Virus record (IMG/VR): IMGVR_UViG_3300032829_000024
Coordinates: 1-39,403 of that record
Origin: a virus
DNA length: 39,403 nt
Strand: one strand, 5' to 3'
In this document: one piece after another, positions 16,948 through 36,024 of the stretch
Layout: the number at the start of each line of letters is the position of its first letter
Position numbering within the stretch: position 1 is the stretch's first letter
The notes under the pieces: model-generated
Seen by the model: the letters and a program-made list of their open reading frames with translations, nothing else
Databases searched by the model: none
Told to the model about the DNA's origin: nothing
Program-made: the position numbers and the translations under genes

Positions 16948-17185
16948 TGAAAGTCCAACCCTACCGCGTGAGGCGGAACTTTCCCGACCTGCCCACCTAC
17001 GACCCGCTCCCAGAGGCCGACTGGCCGGAGTGGGCGGAACTGCAGGTCGAGGCTGAGAAGATGCAGCGTCTAGAGGCCGTCGAGCGCAATCACTCACGGC
17101 GCGGCGCTCACCTATTGGGGTGGGTGGGGATTGCCGTGATTGTGGCCGCGTTCGTGGCGATGTGGATTGCGGCGGGAGAACACTG

Positions 17186-17186
<1 letters not shown>
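16947..17186 (+). CDS. C-tail-anchored small membrane protein (79 aa)
   Basis: The soluble front (about 1-50) is charged with a short helix (EWAELQVEAEKMQRLEAVER). One membrane helix spans about 56-75 (LLGWVGIAVIVAAFVAMWIAA), leaving a three-residue tail. It is coupled on both sides by TGATG overlaps. Function unknown. Confidence 0.6.
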
Positions 17187-17775
<589 letters not shown>

Positions 17776-17776
<1 letters not shown>

Positions 17777-29641: not shown

Positions 29642-31171
29642 CTACTGCTGTGAAGATGCCCCGCCCGCAACCGCTCCTGCGACTGGGGCTGCTGTTTGAA
29701 CTCTACCGGAAGGAACCTGTACGGCGGTTCCACCGCTTGGCCTCCCGAAATTAGCGAACGCTCTTTCCATCATGGCCTCTGAAGTCTGCCGCTCCTTGAG
29801 CCAGGTAGCCGCCGCGCTCTGCTGGGTTCCTTCGTAGACGGCCCACGGGTCGCCCCTTGCTACGCCGACTGCAATCTTCGCATAGGCTCTTGCCTTGCTG
29901 AGTTGTTCGGCAAGGCTCTGAGGTTGCTGGCGCAACGCTACATTCTCCCGCTTGGAAAGAACATCCTGAAAGTTCGAGAGCGCCCCGTACCGCTGTTTCA
30001 ATTGAGCTGCCCCGGGTCCGGTCAATTCATCGAGCTTTGCATACAAGGATGCCCGCAACTGATTGGCCTCGGCCACGACATGCCCGGTTTCCGGGTCGCG
30101 TGCCGCTACCTGCTGCCCTACCTTGTTCTTCGCATAGTAGGAATTCAGTTCGTTGTTTGCGGATTGCAGGAATTCCTCGGCTTCATCGAGTTTCATCGGG
30201 CGCCGGTAGGTATCCGCGATCTTCGTGATGCGTTCAACGAGTCCAGGGTTCTGAATCGCCGTCCGTGCGTCTATCGAATTCATCATGGCGTCGGCCACTT
30301 CGTTTCCGTTGATTGTCGGTTCGTGGGTCACTGCCTGGAGTTGACCTGTAGTGGGGTTGCGAGTTTGCAGCGGTCCTACGTCCATTGCCCTTGCTTGCGA
30401 GAGTTTCTGGGCGTATTGGTCCCAGATGTGTGCCTTTGCAACCGTCGCCGCTTCCTTGGCGTCCGCGAACGTCTTGATAGGCCGTCCCAGTTCCGCCTCT
30501 GCCGCCTTCAGGTCAGGGAAGGCTTTCGCCATGTCGCTGGCCCACTTTACGTTGTTCGTGCCCGGCTTCAAGGCACTGGTAATCAGGCTCTGGGGGTCTT
30601 TGTCGAAGATTCCCAAAGTCTCGGCCATTACATCTCCCGCAGGCTTCGGAGTTGCTACGGGTGTCGTCTGGGGCGCGGGTGTTATCGCAGGAGTCGCAGC
30701 GGCTTCCTCCCCGGCTGCTTTGGCTGCTGCGGATACTCCCCTCAAGGTGCGCCAGAACTGAAATGCCTTCCCAAGAAGTCCTCCAGCAAGTTCAGCGCCT
30801 CCGTAGGCGGCGGCTTGTGTGCCCATGTTCTTGAGGATGTCCCGGCCTGAAGGATGTTCGTCCACTGCCGATTGAGCCGCCCCGACTGCGGCGCCTGTTG
30901 CGGCTGTGGCTGCTACTTTTCCGATGAGCGGCCAGCTTGCGGGAATCGCCATAAGAGGCGCCATGGATGCCGCAACGAGTCCGCCTTTCGTGGCCTCACG
31001 CTGCGATTCCGGTGACATCAACCGTTCGGTAGGAGTCGTTCCCTCTGGGCCAGTGGAAATATCCTCCGGTTTACCGAGCGCGGCAGCGCCCATACCCTGC
31101 TGAGAAACCGGAGTCCAGCCTTCAGGAGCGGACTTCGGAGTCTCAACGGGAGTCCAGCCAGCGACGCTCAT
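29642..31171 (-). CDS. Ejection protein, P22 gp16-like position (509 aa)
   Basis: ATG at 31171 makes an ATGA overlap. The N-terminal part has repeated AGWTPV, APEGWTPV segments, then a hydrophobic Ala/Gly stretch (VAATAATGAAVGAAQSAV). Long helical regions follow (about 215-430). Third of three consecutive proteins after gp10/GNAT, the place of P22 gp7-gp20-gp16, whose products enter the cell with the DNA. Assignment is by position and composition, not by clear motif. Confidence 0.65.
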   Translation of the reverse strand: MSVAGWTPVETPKSAPEGWTPVSQQGMGAAALGKPEDISTGPEGTTPTERLMSPESQREATKGGLVAASMAPLMAIPASWPLIGKVAATAATGAAVGAAQSAVDEHPSGRDILKNMGTQAAAYGGAELAGGLLGKAFQFWRTLRGVSAAAKAAGEEAAATPAITPAPQTTPVATPKPAGDVMAETLGIFDKDPQSLITSALKPGTNNVKWASDMAKAFPDLKAAEAELGRPIKTFADAKEAATVAKAHIWDQYAQKLSQARAMDVGPLQTRNPTTGQLQAVTHEPTINGNEVADAMMNSIDARTAIQNPGLVERITKIADTYRRPMKLDEAEEFLQSANNELNSYYAKNKVGQQVAARDPETGHVVAEANQLRASLYAKLDELTGPGAAQLKQRYGALSNFQDVLSKRENVALRQQPQSLAEQLSKARAYAKIAVGVARGDPWAVYEGTQQSAAATWLKERQTSEAMMERAFANFGRPSGGTAVQVPSGRVQTAAPVAGAVAGGASSQQ

Positions 31172-32769
31172 TGCGGAGCCTTCTCCTGCTTCCATCCTTC
31201 AGGGACTGGAGTCCCTTCTTTCGCCTGATGCAAGACTCCCTGCGGGTCGCGGGCGTAGATAACACCGGCAGTGCCTTGTGGCGCCCACTTGTCGAGCTGC
31301 GCCTTGGCCTCCGGCGTGATGAACCTGTCCTGGAAGGAAGGCATGGAATCGCTCTTGTTCTGGTTCCACTGATTCTCCAAGGCTCCAATCTTGGAGCGCA
31401 ACAGTTTAGCCGTGATTCCCACGTTGCTCTTGAGTTGCTGCGGCCCCAGACTCGGGTCGAAGTCCTTTTCATCCGAACCGCGTTCGCCTGCCGACCCTCC
31501 TGCCCCGATATACGCCTTGGCAATCTCCGGCCCTACCCGGTGGACAATCGTGTTGAACGTCGTCACGTTGTCTTTGCCGGTCTGCACCCCAACGAAATTG
31601 GCAATGCGGTTGAGTGCCTTGATGTCATTGTTGTTGAGCGCGTCAATCGCATCTCCCAGTACTCCGACGTGCCCCATCGCCGTGTTGATGGCGTTGATTT
31701 CCGTGGAGTGCTTTCCGACCGTGAAGTCCTTGCGAATCTGCGCCCGTTGCTCGCTCCACTGCGGGTCACGCTGGAACACGTCCCCCATGACTGCCTGCCA
31801 GTAGGGAGTTCTGAGGGCGAAACTTCCCGGAGGCGACATGCGCCCCTCGAGAATCGCATCGGAAGTCGCCTTCTGTGCCGGACTCACTTGTTGGCCTTGC
31901 AGTCCTCCGGCCTGAAGATTGAAGTTGAACGCAGGCACCATCGTCTTGATGGCCTTGACTCCAGCGATGGCTTTTTCTTCATCTGCGCTGATGGGTTCCC
32001 CGGCAGATTTCTTGCCGAGCGCCGCTGCCGCGACCGCTTCCATCTGCGGGAAGGGCATCCGCAATCCCGCCGGTGAAGTAACCTCTTGGGTCCGGGTGTT
32101 GTAGAACATTCCCGTCCCGGGGATTTCCTTGATTTCCTTGGCCGCAACGTCCCGTTCCTTCATCGCCTGGTCAAACTGTTCTTTCTGTCCGAGCAACGAC
32201 TTCTTGAACATATCGAGGGCCGGGCCGATACGTTGGGGGTCGTTGGTCGAGGCAAGCTGGTCAATCATGTCGGCGTGCTGCTTGTCGAGATACCCTCCTG
32301 CGAGTGCCGCGTTCTTCTCCGTCTGCAAGGCATTGATGAAATTCGGGTCGCTCGGGTCCGGCAATGCATTCAAGTGACCAAGAAGCATGTCGTTTTTCTT
32401 CTGGGCGGTTTCCAGGTTCTTTGCCCCTGTTTCGGCATCGTTCTTGGCGATGTTAGAGAGCTTTTCCTGCTGGCCGAGGATGACGTTCTTGAGACCGATG
32501 ACTGCCTGTGAAGAACCCCCATGCTTGACGATGAGGGGAAGCAAGTCGTCGTAGCTCTTGCCGTCCCATTCGTGCATCGCGGCGGTCGTGGCTTGCTGGT
32601 CGTTAATTTGTTGCTGGCGGAGTTGGTTTTCTTGTCCGAGCGCCTGCTGGCCGAGCACTTGGCTCTGCTGCTGGCCGATCATGCTCTTAATAGACAGAGC
32701 CTTGGCGTATTCGCTGAGAGGGTCAGCGGGAGGACGAAGCTGATTCGCCGCAGAGGGGAAGGCGCCCAT
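31168..32769 (-). CDS. Ejection protein, P22 gp20-like position (533 aa)
   Basis: TAATG overlap at the start. Gln-rich helical front (MIGQQQSQVLGQQALGQENQ), helices to about 240, a central domain and an end with EAKAQLDKWAPQG and VIYARDPQGVLHQAKEGTPVPEGW. P22 gp20 is 471 aa. Probably one of the proteins released ahead of DNA. Position-based call. Confidence 0.65.
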   Translation of the reverse strand: MGAFPSAANQLRPPADPLSEYAKALSIKSMIGQQQSQVLGQQALGQENQLRQQQINDQQATTAAMHEWDGKSYDDLLPLIVKHGGSSQAVIGLKNVILGQQEKLSNIAKNDAETGAKNLETAQKKNDMLLGHLNALPDPSDPNFINALQTEKNAALAGGYLDKQHADMIDQLASTNDPQRIGPALDMFKKSLLGQKEQFDQAMKERDVAAKEIKEIPGTGMFYNTRTQEVTSPAGLRMPFPQMEAVAAAALGKKSAGEPISADEEKAIAGVKAIKTMVPAFNFNLQAGGLQGQQVSPAQKATSDAILEGRMSPPGSFALRTPYWQAVMGDVFQRDPQWSEQRAQIRKDFTVGKHSTEINAINTAMGHVGVLGDAIDALNNNDIKALNRIANFVGVQTGKDNVTTFNTIVHRVGPEIAKAYIGAGGSAGERGSDEKDFDPSLGPQQLKSNVGITAKLLRSKIGALENQWNQNKSDSMPSFQDRFITPEAKAQLDKWAPQGTAGVIYARDPQGVLHQAKEGTPVPEGWKQEKAPQ

Positions 32770-33578
32770 TACGTGACAATCCCTCCACCGATGTCAGGAG
32801 TCGTGGCAGGCTTGAGAAGGTTCTGAAGGGCCAGAATCCCCCCGATGCTCCCTACACTCCCGGTCAGGGCATTGGCCGCGCCCGTGTAGCCGGAGGCCGT
32901 CTGATAGGCAGCGTTCTGGATGTCGGAGCCAATCTGCGCCCCAGAGGTCAGGTTGATATTTGCGACGTTTCCAGCCGCAGCCTGCCCCTGATTCCCGAGG
33001 GTTGTCGTAGCTGTCTGGCCCGCTCCAGCAACTCCAGCCAAACGGTTGTAGGTGTTGGCTTGGTTGTTCTGGAAGATGTTGTACGCCTGCTGATACTGGG
33101 TCAGGGCGCGGTTGAACACATTGGAATATTCATTTGAGGCGTAGTCCTGAGCGTAGTTGGTCAAGTCACGCGCCGTCCCACCGGCCAAGACTCCGCCCCG
33201 GGCCGCTGCTGAGTTCTCAAGGGTCTGCTGGCCGAGTTGCAGCCGCGCCAGATAACCCGGGTCCGTTGTTTCGTTGAGTTGGGGAGCTTGGAAAGTGTCA
33301 GTCCAAGGCATGAGCAATCCCTGTCCGGGCGTCGAAGTCAGGCCAGAAAGAGTGTTGATTGCCCCGGTCCCGGCAGTGACCCAAGGTTGTGCCCTTTGGA
33401 CGTTCTGATTGTACTGTTGCTCTTGAAACTGGAGCGAGTTCTGGGCTTCCTCATATTGGAGTTGCGCTGCGCTCTTGGCGGCATTGGCCTGAAGACTGGA
33501 ACCGTAGATGGATGCTCCCGCCCCCACGAGTCCGGTTGCCCCGATGATTGCTGCCGTTGCTCCCGTCCCGAGGCCCAT
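32769..33578 (-). CDS. Ejection protein, P22 gp7-like (269 aa)
   Basis: TAATG overlap with the GNAT gene. A Gly/Ala-rich hydrophobic start (TGATAAIIGATGLVGAGASIYG) is typical of the first ejection protein in P22-like phages. A helical part with YEEAQNSLQFQEQQYNQNVQRAQPWV and a Gly/Ala/Gln-rich tail follow. P22 gp7 is about 229 aa. Confidence 0.72.
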   Translation of the reverse strand: MGLGTGATAAIIGATGLVGAGASIYGSSLQANAAKSAAQLQYEEAQNSLQFQEQQYNQNVQRAQPWVTAGTGAINTLSGLTSTPGQGLLMPWTDTFQAPQLNETTDPGYLARLQLGQQTLENSAAARGGVLAGGTARDLTNYAQDYASNEYSNVFNRALTQYQQAYNIFQNNQANTYNRLAGVAGAGQTATTTLGNQGQAAAGNVANINLTSGAQIGSDIQNAAYQTASGYTGAANALTGSVGSIGGILALQNLLKPATTPDIGGGIVT

Positions 33579-34042
33579 TAGCCCTCCCTGAACGACTTCG
33601 TGAATGCCTTATCGGTGAACCGCCAACCCATCTTCTCGAACAGGTCCGAATGGTCCTGATGCATCTTCGTGGACAGATAGGCTTTGACGACCCCGCGTGC
33701 CTTGAGCGTGCGTTCGACTTCCGCCAGCATCTTGGCCCCGGTCCCTCCTATCCGGTAGTCCGGGTGGATGAAATACATGTCCGTAAAGGCCATCGGCCCT
33801 GCGTCTTTATAGTGCATGTGTGGCATCACTATGGCTAGAAAATATCCGACCAGTCGTCCCTCGTCCCGAACAGTCAGGATGTGCAGCATATCCAATGCGT
33901 CAATGCTGGCGAAGCGTTCCTCGTTCACTCCCAGGGGAATCCACTCCTGGTCAAGAGCCAGTTCTTTCCAGTGAATCGTAATCAGGGGCTGACAGTCCTG
34001 CCAGAACTGCGCCCATCGTTCGAGTTGGTAGGTGAGGCTCAT
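33578..34042 (-). CDS. GNAT-family N-acetyltransferase (154 aa)
   Basis: ATGA overlap with the ACP gene. It has LLTVRDEG-like strand text (LHILTVRDEGRLVGYFLAIV), a MYFIHPDYRIGGTGAKML segment with the acetyl-CoA binding loop at about 97-102 (RIGGTG), and the last strand GVVKAYLSTK...LFEKMGWRFTD. This is a known phage GNAT type found in tail modules. Its substrate is unknown. It directly follows an acyl carrier protein, which may mean acyl rather than acetyl transfer. Confidence 0.85.
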   Translation of the reverse strand: MSLTYQLERWAQFWQDCQPLITIHWKELALDQEWIPLGVNEERFASIDALDMLHILTVRDEGRLVGYFLAIVMPHMHYKDAGPMAFTDMYFIHPDYRIGGTGAKMLAEVERTLKARGVVKAYLSTKMHQDHSDLFEKMGWRFTDKAFTKSFREG

Positions 34043-34260
34043 TCTTCACCGAGTTCCTTGAGCACGGTCACAAGGTCTTGAACCGTGTCGAGCCGGTAAA
34101 TCAGTTCGTTCGGAACCTTGCGTATGGAATTGGCGATAGCGGCCAACATGCACAGAAACTCCATCGAGTCGAGGCCCAAGGCATCGAAACGGGTGTCCAG
34201 AGCCACGGACTGACCGACATCCTCCGAAACTACCGAGATGACTCTCTCCTCAAGGCTCAT
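34039..34260 (-). CDS. Acyl carrier protein (73 aa)
   Basis: ATG at 34260 makes a TGATG overlap. All ACP landmarks are present: helix I (SLEERVISVVSEDVG), the TRFDALGLDSMEFL motif with the phosphopantetheine Ser at 32, helix II (MEFLCMLAAI) and helix III (TVQDLVTVLKELG). Standard ACP is 70-80 aa. It is acidic, as expected. It is coupled to the GNAT gene on the far side and to a small structural gene before it, so it is expressed with the tail proteins. Confidence 0.85.
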   Translation of the reverse strand: MSLEERVISVVSEDVGQSVALDTRFDALGLDSMEFLCMLAAIANSIRKVPNELIYRLDTVQDLVTVLKELGEE

Positions 34261-34487
34261 CAAAACGCTCCCAGGGGAACGCGGCGCCAGAGATTCGTTC
34301 CGATACAGATGTACAGGAAATTCGCGTCATAGGCAATCTGCCCGGAGATGCCGGTGCTGGTAGAAGAAGCGGGAGCCGCCACACCCCCGGCAGGCGACCG
34401 CATGGCCTGATACCAGTTCGTCAGGGTCTTGGAATCAACGTCCTTGATCCGCCCTGAACTTGGCGGCGGTGCGACGGTTTGCGCCAT
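34260..34487 (-). CDS. Small fibre-type protein (75 aa)
   Basis: ATG at 34487 follows the gp10 stop by 1 nt. A flexible Pro/Ser/Ala-rich front (VAPPPSSGRIKDVDSKTLTN) leads to GQIAYDANFLYICIGTNLWRRVPLGAF, a short module common at the ends of phage fibre or tail proteins, with Tyr-Ile-Cys and a final W..V pattern. May be a tail accessory. Confidence 0.65.
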   Translation of the reverse strand: MAQTVAPPPSSGRIKDVDSKTLTNWYQAMRSPAGGVAAPASSTSTGISGQIAYDANFLYICIGTNLWRRVPLGAF

Positions 34488-34488
34488 C

Positions 34489-36024
34489 CTAGCTGGCCTT
34501 TCCGATACTCGCCACAAGCCGTTCTTGAGGCTTATATCCGGGGTCCGCGTTCAGGTAGCCGTCAATGACCCGCCAGGGAATCGGGTCCGCCACGGAGATT
34601 TCGTACACCCGGTCCCGCGCCCTGCCAAGTCTTGAACGCCGTACCCGGTGGCGATACCGTCCCGCTTGCCCGGCATCGAGCGGGTATTCATTCGACCAAG
34701 TATGGGCGTAATCGTTCGACCAGCGCAGCATCACCTGTGGCCCTCGGGCGTTTCCCGCCCCGTCTACAAGCGGAGGCTGAGGTCCAAGCCCTGTCTCGAT
34801 GTCCAGAACCAATTCGTTATGGAACATCCAGTGATTCTCGATAGATATGTGCGGAGAACGCCGCACCCGCTTGATGGCGTTTCCGCTGTCATCGTAGAGC
34901 GAAATGGACATCTGGTAGATGTTCCCGCTTCCCGGGTCGCCTACCAAGTGCTTGCCGAAGGCGAATACATGGTTCTGGCTCTTATGGGCCGAGAACATCG
35001 CGGTTGAAACGTTCCAGTACCCGCGTTCATGCCACATCCCGGTTGCTACGTCATAGACCCACGTCTTTTGAGCCGTGGGGAAGAAGAACACCGCGAAGGC
35101 ATGGCCCTGGTCCTGGTAGGAATAGACTACACAATCGTTGATGACCGGATAGCCCTGGATGGCGTATTCGATGGCGTGATTTGAGATGCGAGTGGGAGTG
35201 TAGCCCGAAAGTCTCCGGGCCACTCCTGCCCCACGTTCATCTTGGTCGAGCCAAAAGACGGAATTGTCCAGACGGCAGTTTGCGAACGGCGAAACAATGC
35301 CGTTTTCAATCGTGCCGCTCGGGTCCACGTCCAGGATGTTGAGGCTTCCTGAATCATAATAGGTGGTCGAGCGTTTCTTCCCCTGCACGGAAAGACGCCT
35401 TTGATTGACGATGAAGGTCTGCACGTTGTCGCTGAACACCGAGACGATGATTTTCTGCAAGCCCGGCCAACTGGTCGCGTCAAAGAGCGTCGAGATGTAG
35501 AAGGTCTGGGAGTTCCGCAGGAGAACGAGAAAGAAGCCATCCAAGAACTCAACGATGCTCGGCTGACCATAAGCTCCACTCGGCAGGGAGAAATTGGAGT
35601 TCGGCACCTGCACGAACGACCCTGCGACCCCAGTCCCAAGCGCGATTCCTGTCTGTGTCTGAAGCTGATAGACGTAGAGGTTTCCCCCGGAGGCGATGAG
35701 CAACTGCTCTGGCGAAGCGACCATTGAAGCGGGAAGCTGGTCGTTGGTCACCGGAGCGATGATAGCGTAAGAGCCATCGGACTTAACTTCGCAGAACGTC
35801 GCGCCTGCGATGGCGAATGAACGCCCGTTGATTTCCAGTTGAGCACGAATGGGAGCATCGGGAATCGTGGTAAAGACTTTAGTGCCTGGCGTGGGATAGA
35901 GCGCCATCTGCGCCTTGCCGGTTCCGCTTTCGATAATTTCAGGATACCAGTTGCGCGTCACCTGACAATCTGCTGTCAGGCTCTGGCTCTGGTACGAAGG
36001 TCCAATCAAGCCGAATCGCGCCAT
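34489..36024 (-). CDS. Packaged-DNA stabilisation protein, P22 gp10-like (511 aa)
   Basis: P22 gp10 is 472 aa. It opens with FGLIGPSYQSQSLTADCQVTRNWYPE and continues with GTKVFTTIPDAPIRAQLEINGRSFAI, FVNQRRLSVQGKKRST-like text, and SPFANCRLDNSVFWLDQDERG, all typical of the Phage_stabilise family. Beta-propeller-like repeats run through the middle. It caps the portal-gp4 channel and binds the tailspike or needle. Confidence 0.82.
   Translation of the reverse strand: MARFGLIGPSYQSQSLTADCQVTRNWYPEIIESGTGKAQMALYPTPGTKVFTTIPDAPIRAQLEINGRSFAIAGATFCEVKSDGSYAIIAPVTNDQLPASMVASPEQLLIASGGNLYVYQLQTQTGIALGTGVAGSFVQVPNSNFSLPSGAYGQPSIVEFLDGFFLVLLRNSQTFYISTLFDATSWPGLQKIIVSVFSDNVQTFIVNQRRLSVQGKKRSTTYYDSGSLNILDVDPSGTIENGIVSPFANCRLDNSVFWLDQDERGAGVARRLSGYTPTRISNHAIEYAIQGYPVINDCVVYSYQDQGHAFAVFFFPTAQKTWVYDVATGMWHERGYWNVSTAMFSAHKSQNHVFAFGKHLVGDPGSGNIYQMSISLYDDSGNAIKRVRRSPHISIENHWMFHNELVLDIETGLGPQPPLVDGAGNARGPQVMLRWSNDYAHTWSNEYPLDAGQAGRYRHRVRRSRLGRARDRVYEISVADPIPWRVIDGYLNADPGYKPQERLVASIGKAS

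Follow-up and report, generated by a model that had tools for sequence, protein, structure and literature searches.

An acyl carrier protein and a GNAT acyltransferase encoded as a conserved pair in the virion module of a P22-like podovirus and its relatives, with a possible role in virion protein acylation

The window, meaning the whole stretch of DNA analysed here, is the 39,403-base record of an uncultivated P22-like podovirus, which encodes a P22-type portal and coat, a terminase and an Erf-like annealing protein and carries its late genes on the minus strand. Among these late genes, that for the packaged-DNA stabilisation or head closure protein Hc3 (gp10-like; 34489..36024, minus strand; phrog_578, E 4.9e-88) is followed by a small gene whose product is tail-protein-like in its C-terminal part (34260..34517, minus strand; a weak match to phrog_17312), the gene for an acyl carrier protein (ACP; 34039..34260, minus strand), the gene for a 154-aa GNAT acyltransferase (33578..34042, minus strand) and the gene for a gp7/gp14-like first ejection protein, the best candidate substrate of the pair (32769..33578, minus strand; phrog_598, E 1.5e-30). 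Farther along lie the genes for a probable second ejection protein (31168..32769, minus strand), assigned from its position after the phrog_598 gene and by analogy with the gene order of PfAn1 and matching no family in Pfam or PHROGs, and for a probable third (29642..31195, minus strand), assigned by position. The stop of the ACP gene and the start of the GNAT gene have an ATGA in common, while at the start of the ACP gene and at that of the ejection gene a TGATG links each to the preceding stop through a single common base; through these TGATG, ATGA and TGATG overlaps four genes are chained, from the small tail-like gene through the ejection gene. The initial annotation had described the ATGA coupling to a GNAT with a RIGGTG loop and had placed the pair between gp10-like and ejection-protein genes. 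The coordinates, the GNAT match to PF00583 (40.3 bits, cut-off 20.7) and the phrog_578 and phrog_598 flanks bear it out on both counts, with the amendment that the small gene at 34260-34517, which it had left out, separates the ACP gene from the Hc3 gene. In two related contigs (L009 and L010) the ACP gene is likewise preceded by a small tail-like gene. Two observations lie to the side: a small tail-region gene of MW202796.1 (L001:2086-2331) carries the annotation 'ubiquitin', and an ORF in the early phage region of the window (17120-17776, plus strand) matches an Imm5-like immunity protein (PF21805, 40.7 bits).

The ACP is 73 aa long when read from its natural ATG at 34260, and the ORF extends to 74 aa from a TTG at 34263. 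It matches PF00550 at 26.8 bits (cut-off 20.8), and its AF2 model (pLDDT 89) has the four-helix ACP pattern, with Ser32 opening helix II (helix 32-45), so that the earlier description of a complete ACP with Ser32 stands. The sequence around this serine reads FDALGLDSMEFLCML, and its codon (34165..34167, minus strand) marks the predicted 4'-phosphopantetheine site. Foldseek places the model closest to AcpP-type ACPs (TM ~0.8, best E 1.4e-3), and its matches include ACPs that serve as structural subunits, namely those of complex I and MmpL5-AcpM. Identity with the housekeeping AcpP was rejected, the NCBIfam PRK00982-type models scoring 17.1 bits against a cut-off of 71. The 22 distinct ACPs found at this locus are acidic (pI 4.1-4.6) and mostly 21-36% identical to that of the window, with Asp31-Ser32 as the only invariant columns, and they appear to be under purifying selection (omega 0.05-0.22 in the two closest ACP pairs). 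That Asp-Ser is constant across such divergent proteins gives good support to the prediction that the ACP needs its serine and argues for a phosphopantetheine form, and we infer that the protein works as holo-ACP. A search for a phosphopantetheinyl transferase (PF01648) found none in 21 records that carry the ACP, so the ACP-activating enzyme would have to come from the host.

The GNAT belongs to phrog_1249, as do all 31 of the relatives scanned, and its AF2 model is confident (pLDDT 95), with a structural Z of ~15 to many GNATs. The pyrophosphate-binding loop RIGGTG, read from the sequence at residues 97-102 (33737..33754, minus strand), fits the pattern Q/R-x-x-G-x-G/A. Across the 31 relatives R97 is invariant, G102 nearly so and the middle glycine variable, as in RKANVG and RKGTSG. 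The residue that aligns by eye with the canonical helix 4 tyrosine, the general acid, is Phe135 in the window and Phe, Met or Leu in relatives; this tyrosine is dispensable in some GNATs. The nearest solved folds are CoA users, and the acyl-ACP users HlyC and LuxI are absent among the listed Foldseek/VIA matches, which name ordinary CoA-dependent GNATs, an absence compatible with kinship all the same. Two assignments found no support by family match: membership of the RtxC/HlyC family, GNAT families being the only Pfam matches at E<=0.05, and identity as an AHL synthase of the LuxI type, Pfam giving no Autoind_synth match.

The pair recurs well beyond the window. Scans of IMG/VR that took as queries the ejection protein, the GNAT itself and two alignments of GNATs yielded about 100 contigs, metagenomic and in many cases fragmentary, with start codons set by eye in places, and an ACP model was iterated on their loci. 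Counting the window and two later finds, 25 IMG/VR contigs have an ACP gene directly upstream of a GNAT gene at this locus, and together these hold the 22 distinct ACPs; the co-occurrence survey proposed with the initial annotation thus finds the two genes together in 24 other contigs. The overlap between them is mostly 4 or 17 bases, and in relatives, too, the phrog_598 ejection gene is the next gene after the GNAT. Over ~0.8 Mb of fetched phage DNA the ACP model gave 34 matches, each directly upstream of a GNAT, from which we conclude that the pairing is not chance. When whole records were searched with PF00550, 18 of 50 had a match above the cut-off and 20 of 50 at E<=0.1, with one ACP per record and always at this locus. 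Moreover, when loci were collected by means of the ejection protein alone, 80 had enough upstream DNA; with presence called by the ACP and GNAT models, 15 of these had both ACP and GNAT, none had the ACP alone, 22 had the GNAT alone and 43 had neither (Fisher p ~1e-6, a value that is too optimistic because the loci are related, a few contigs are near-copies and relatedness is uncorrected). The pairing of ACP and GNAT in the virion module is therefore real and conserved. The searches revealed no cultured phage that carries the pair: the window ACP as query matched none, and two related ACPs gave scattered weak matches to unannotated faecal records, apparent host DNA and jumbo phages. The paired locus was not found in the three jumbo-phage records inspected, and PF00550 had no match anywhere in the records of six phages with a related Hc3 or ejection gene. 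In open PMC papers we found no description of a dedicated ACP-GNAT pair.

The history of the association can be followed on a tree of 59 GNATs, in which ACP presence changes ~4 times against 18 expected at random. Strongly supported branches force at least two changes, the ACP accompanying both the window-type GNAT and a second, distinct type (L042 and L048), and a single origin of the ACP within the window-type family is compatible with the data (AU p 0.39). Within that family three GNAT residues sort with the carrier: residue 131 is His or Arg in 18 of 18 proteins with an ACP and in 0 of 17 without, Ser124 is found in 18 of 18 and 1 of 17, and Asp144 in 18 of 18 and 2 of 17. GNATs with an ACP also lean basic, with a median pI of 8.5 vs 7.0 for those without. 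The second-family GNATs of L042 and L048 do not have the basic residue 131. Residue 131 and ACP presence both track the tree, leaving one independent contrast on supported branches, so the split is a lead rather than a proof; perfect as it is, residue 131 was rejected as proof of ACP use.

A GNAT at this position is not in itself new. In the cobavirus SIO1-like phages, pc40 is a GNAT beside the internal virion proteins, and its authors compared it with T7 gp13 (PMC6775973). What the initial annotation had offered as an unusual pair within a virion module is thus, as far as open PMC papers show, new in the conserved, dedicated ACP partner and already known in the GNAT at the locus (PMC6775973). 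In Pseudomonas phage PfAn1, in Zobellviridae phages of Vibrio and in others, a phrog_1249 GNAT precedes the ejection genes, and none of eight GNAT phage records checked has an ACP anywhere in the record. In the T7 order gp12-gp13-gp14, gp13 lies between tail tube B and the gp14-like ejection gene, the same position as the GNAT. Homology of the GNAT with T7 gp13 (PF11090) found no support by sequence (hhalign probability 0.1%; phrog_308 is the only PHROG to which T7 gp13 is assigned).

In relatives without an ACP, other enzymes often occupy the slot ahead of the ejection gene, namely cupins, further GNATs, DUF6445 proteins and an aspartyl/asparaginyl hydroxylase (PF05118). Enzymes of the PF05118, DUF6445 or cupin types, often beside a GNAT, are seen at L025:3459-4004, L050:3366-3935 and L112:3519-3839, and similar slot ORFs, unscanned, occur in L030, L032, L038, L118, L061 and L063. 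In three contigs (L054:1477-1971, L055:3345-3839 and L046:3438-3950) a protein of 164-170 aa takes the place of ACP and GNAT, and those of L054 and L046 have no Pfam match. The slot looks exchangeable and looks like a place for protein-modifying enzymes, and its richness in possible enzymes of this kind adds to the plausibility that a virion protein is modified.

The first ejection protein, the candidate for such modification, has a hydrophobic N-terminus rich in Gly and Ala. In a four-member alignment it has no invariant lysine, and its lysines are few overall, so that a side-chain acylation site is not evident. Its position 2 is Ser or Gly in most loci with an ACP and often Val or Ala in those without, a comparison made by eye in which several starts are uncertain, for which reason its Fisher value, computed from hand-entered counts, carries no weight here. 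In two relatives (L044:4000-4030 and L053:3425-3455) the ejection gene apparently starts with ACG after a good Shine-Dalgarno sequence (AGGAGATTTTACGTCAACC and AAGGAGAAACTTACGTCAACG); in their relatives an ATG stands ahead of the same codons, and in L044 and L053 no ATG, GTG or TTG fits equally well.

As to the host, the GNAT alignment had no match in 84,980 bacterial and archaeal genomes, and the same genomes scanned with the ejection protein gave two contigs, both from Acidobacteriota MAGs and the sole genome contigs with a close relative of the ejection gene. One of them has a GNAT without an ACP, and the other is cut at the contig edge. In 396 Acidobacteriota genomes the GNAT profile gave weak matches only (<=41 bits), read as generic chromosomal GNATs. 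These two MAG contigs, together with the ACP listed for an Acidobacteriota virus in the part of the Tunturi virus paper drawn on here (PMC11924767), hint at Acidobacteriota as the host phylum. On one Acidobacteriota MAG contig (L130) an ejection-gene fragment is followed by a bacterial-looking ORF of 1307 aa on the opposite strand (L130:1592-5515), a junction that looks like a prophage edge or a chimera.

Collectively, the gene order, the pairing and the invariant serine suggest a model in which the ACP is the dedicated acyl donor of the GNAT and the two together acylate a protein of the virion in late infection, a reading to which we give a probability of about 0.4. The location of the pair just before the gene of an injected protein suggests that these phages acylate their own injection machinery, and we infer, as the initial annotation did alongside a host lipid or sugar, that an ejection or tail protein may be the target. 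Specifically, the ACP and the GNAT would be made together by coupled translation, as their overlapping genes predict; a host enzyme of the AcpS or Sfp type would modify Ser32 with 4'-phosphopantetheine, as the invariant Asp-Ser and the absence of PF01648 suggest; and the acyl group would presumably be loaded by the host, through fatty-acid synthesis or by an acyl-ACP synthetase. The GNAT would then draw this group from the ACP, not from CoA, and pass it to an amine. The donor role of the ACP and the direction of transfer would follow from the strict pairing and from analogy: SbzC, SbzI and FeeM are GNATs with free-standing ACP donors (PMC6331615), and RtxC is a GNAT-like enzyme that uses acyl-ACP as donor and is without CoA elements (PMC8339906). 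The amine may belong to the ejection protein made next, in which case the modification could aid entry into or crossing of the host envelope; the choice of this protein is a guess from gene position, and the acyl chain is a guess likewise. CdiC lipidates a delivery protein and thereby improves target recognition (PMC8510554). A fuller form of the model, in which the private ACP and the GNAT are a self-contained unit that acylates the ejection protein for insertion into or crossing of the host envelope, as a virion counterpart of HlyC/CdiC lipidation, seems to us somewhat unlikely. The usable CoA loop RIGGTG kept in the window GNAT counts against the ACP as donor; in addition, many relatives of this GNAT, in many podoviruses, stand at the locus without an ACP, so that the ACP would be unnecessary for the basic role of the GNAT, which may use CoA. 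If the model is true, an acyl-marked ejection protein would be a new answer to the question of how the soluble ejection proteins of short-tailed phages are driven across membranes, and the GNAT beside the ejection genes in several podovirus groups would be given a function. The ACP makes the acylation reading testable, as it points to a donor, to its active serine and to a candidate substrate, with the genes for all of them adjacent.

The best-surviving alternative, itself unlikely, is that the pair makes an acylated small molecule or lipid, such as an N-acyl amino acid, an AHL-like signal, a modified sugar or a lipid A precursor, whose product alters the host or neighbouring cells and for which the ejection-side position is merely a convenient expression slot. 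AHL synthases are GNAT-type users of acyl-ACP, a precedent that counts for this account. FeeM is a second such user (PMC6331615), the slot carries other enzymes in relatives, and PHROGs classes phage ACPs as moron/AMG. A virion role fits better with the finding that GNATs adjoin ejection genes in distant podovirus groups; moreover, no other metabolic gene is seen beside the pair and, as noted above, the GNAT gives no Autoind_synth match in Pfam. Improbable in our judgement is a purely structural role, in which acyl-ACP would stabilise the GNAT or the ejection protein as a folding subunit during assembly and no acyl transfer would occur: the complex I and MmpL5-AcpM precedents among the Foldseek matches favour it, and the invariant Asp-Ser motif and the translational coupling are compatible with it, but it leaves unexplained both the association of ACP with GNAT and the absence of the ACP from ejection loci that have no GNAT. 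Transfer in the reverse direction, with the GNAT charging the ACP thiol with an acetyl or another short acyl group taken from CoA, for use by a further enzyme, has a parallel in the curacin GNAT, a decarboxylase/S-acetyltransferase acting onto an adjacent ACP (PMC3252866), and would suit the CoA loop kept in the window GNAT; it is nonetheless highly improbable, as no conserved third enzyme is seen beside the pair and GNAT relatives without an ACP must have another acceptor. Least credible by now is that an ordinary acetyl-CoA GNAT and an unrelated small ACP gene share the slot as independent passengers, since, although many GNATs stand here without an ACP, the two genes are adjacent in 25 contigs and across two GNAT families, no ACP occurs without a GNAT, the serine is invariant and selection is purifying.

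Acylation of a virion protein by a phage-encoded carrier and its GNAT would both resemble known systems and depart from them. The initial annotation regarded phage ACPs as rare and without a described role in a virion module, but the ground is less unexplored than this implied: phrog_5934 and phrog_4154 are already named 'acyl carrier protein', and acpP has been reported in roseobacter prophages, some copies lying within fab clusters (PMC8224337). A further ACP is listed as a possible moron/AMG for an Acidobacteriota virus vOTU with a high-quality genome, and the part of the Tunturi virus paper drawn on here describes no partner, place or role for it (PMC11924767). The acpP genes of roseobacter prophages and jumbo phages share with the present locus the feature of a phage-encoded ACP; those of jumbo phages, unlike ours, are surrounded by short genes, most of them unknown, and have neither a GNAT nor an ejection gene annotated as a neighbour. 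Lone ACP genes of this kind occur in jumbo phages XbC2, Bajun and Motura (L131:3749-4156, L132:3998-4231 and L133:3983-4228). The GNAT loci of cobavirus SIO1 (pc40) and the Zobellviridae are like the window in the GNAT fold and in its place between a tail or stabilisation gene and the ejection proteins (PMC6775973), and differ in having no ACP in the eight records checked. SbzC and SbzI with SbzG and SbzK, and FeeM, would share with the phage pair the combination of a GNAT and a dedicated carrier as donor (PMC6331615), whereas these natural-product clusters encode an adenylating loader as well, a gene not seen beside the two phage genes. Finally, the RtxC/TAAT enzymes, including HlyC and CdiC, resemble the proposed system in a GNAT-like fold, in an acyl-ACP donor and in a modified partner that is encoded adjacently and delivered to another cell, a part for which the ejection protein is our candidate (PMC8339906, PMC8510554). 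In contrast to the phage pair, however, they use host acyl-ACP and have no CoA-binding elements, while the phage brings its own ACP and keeps a CoA loop.
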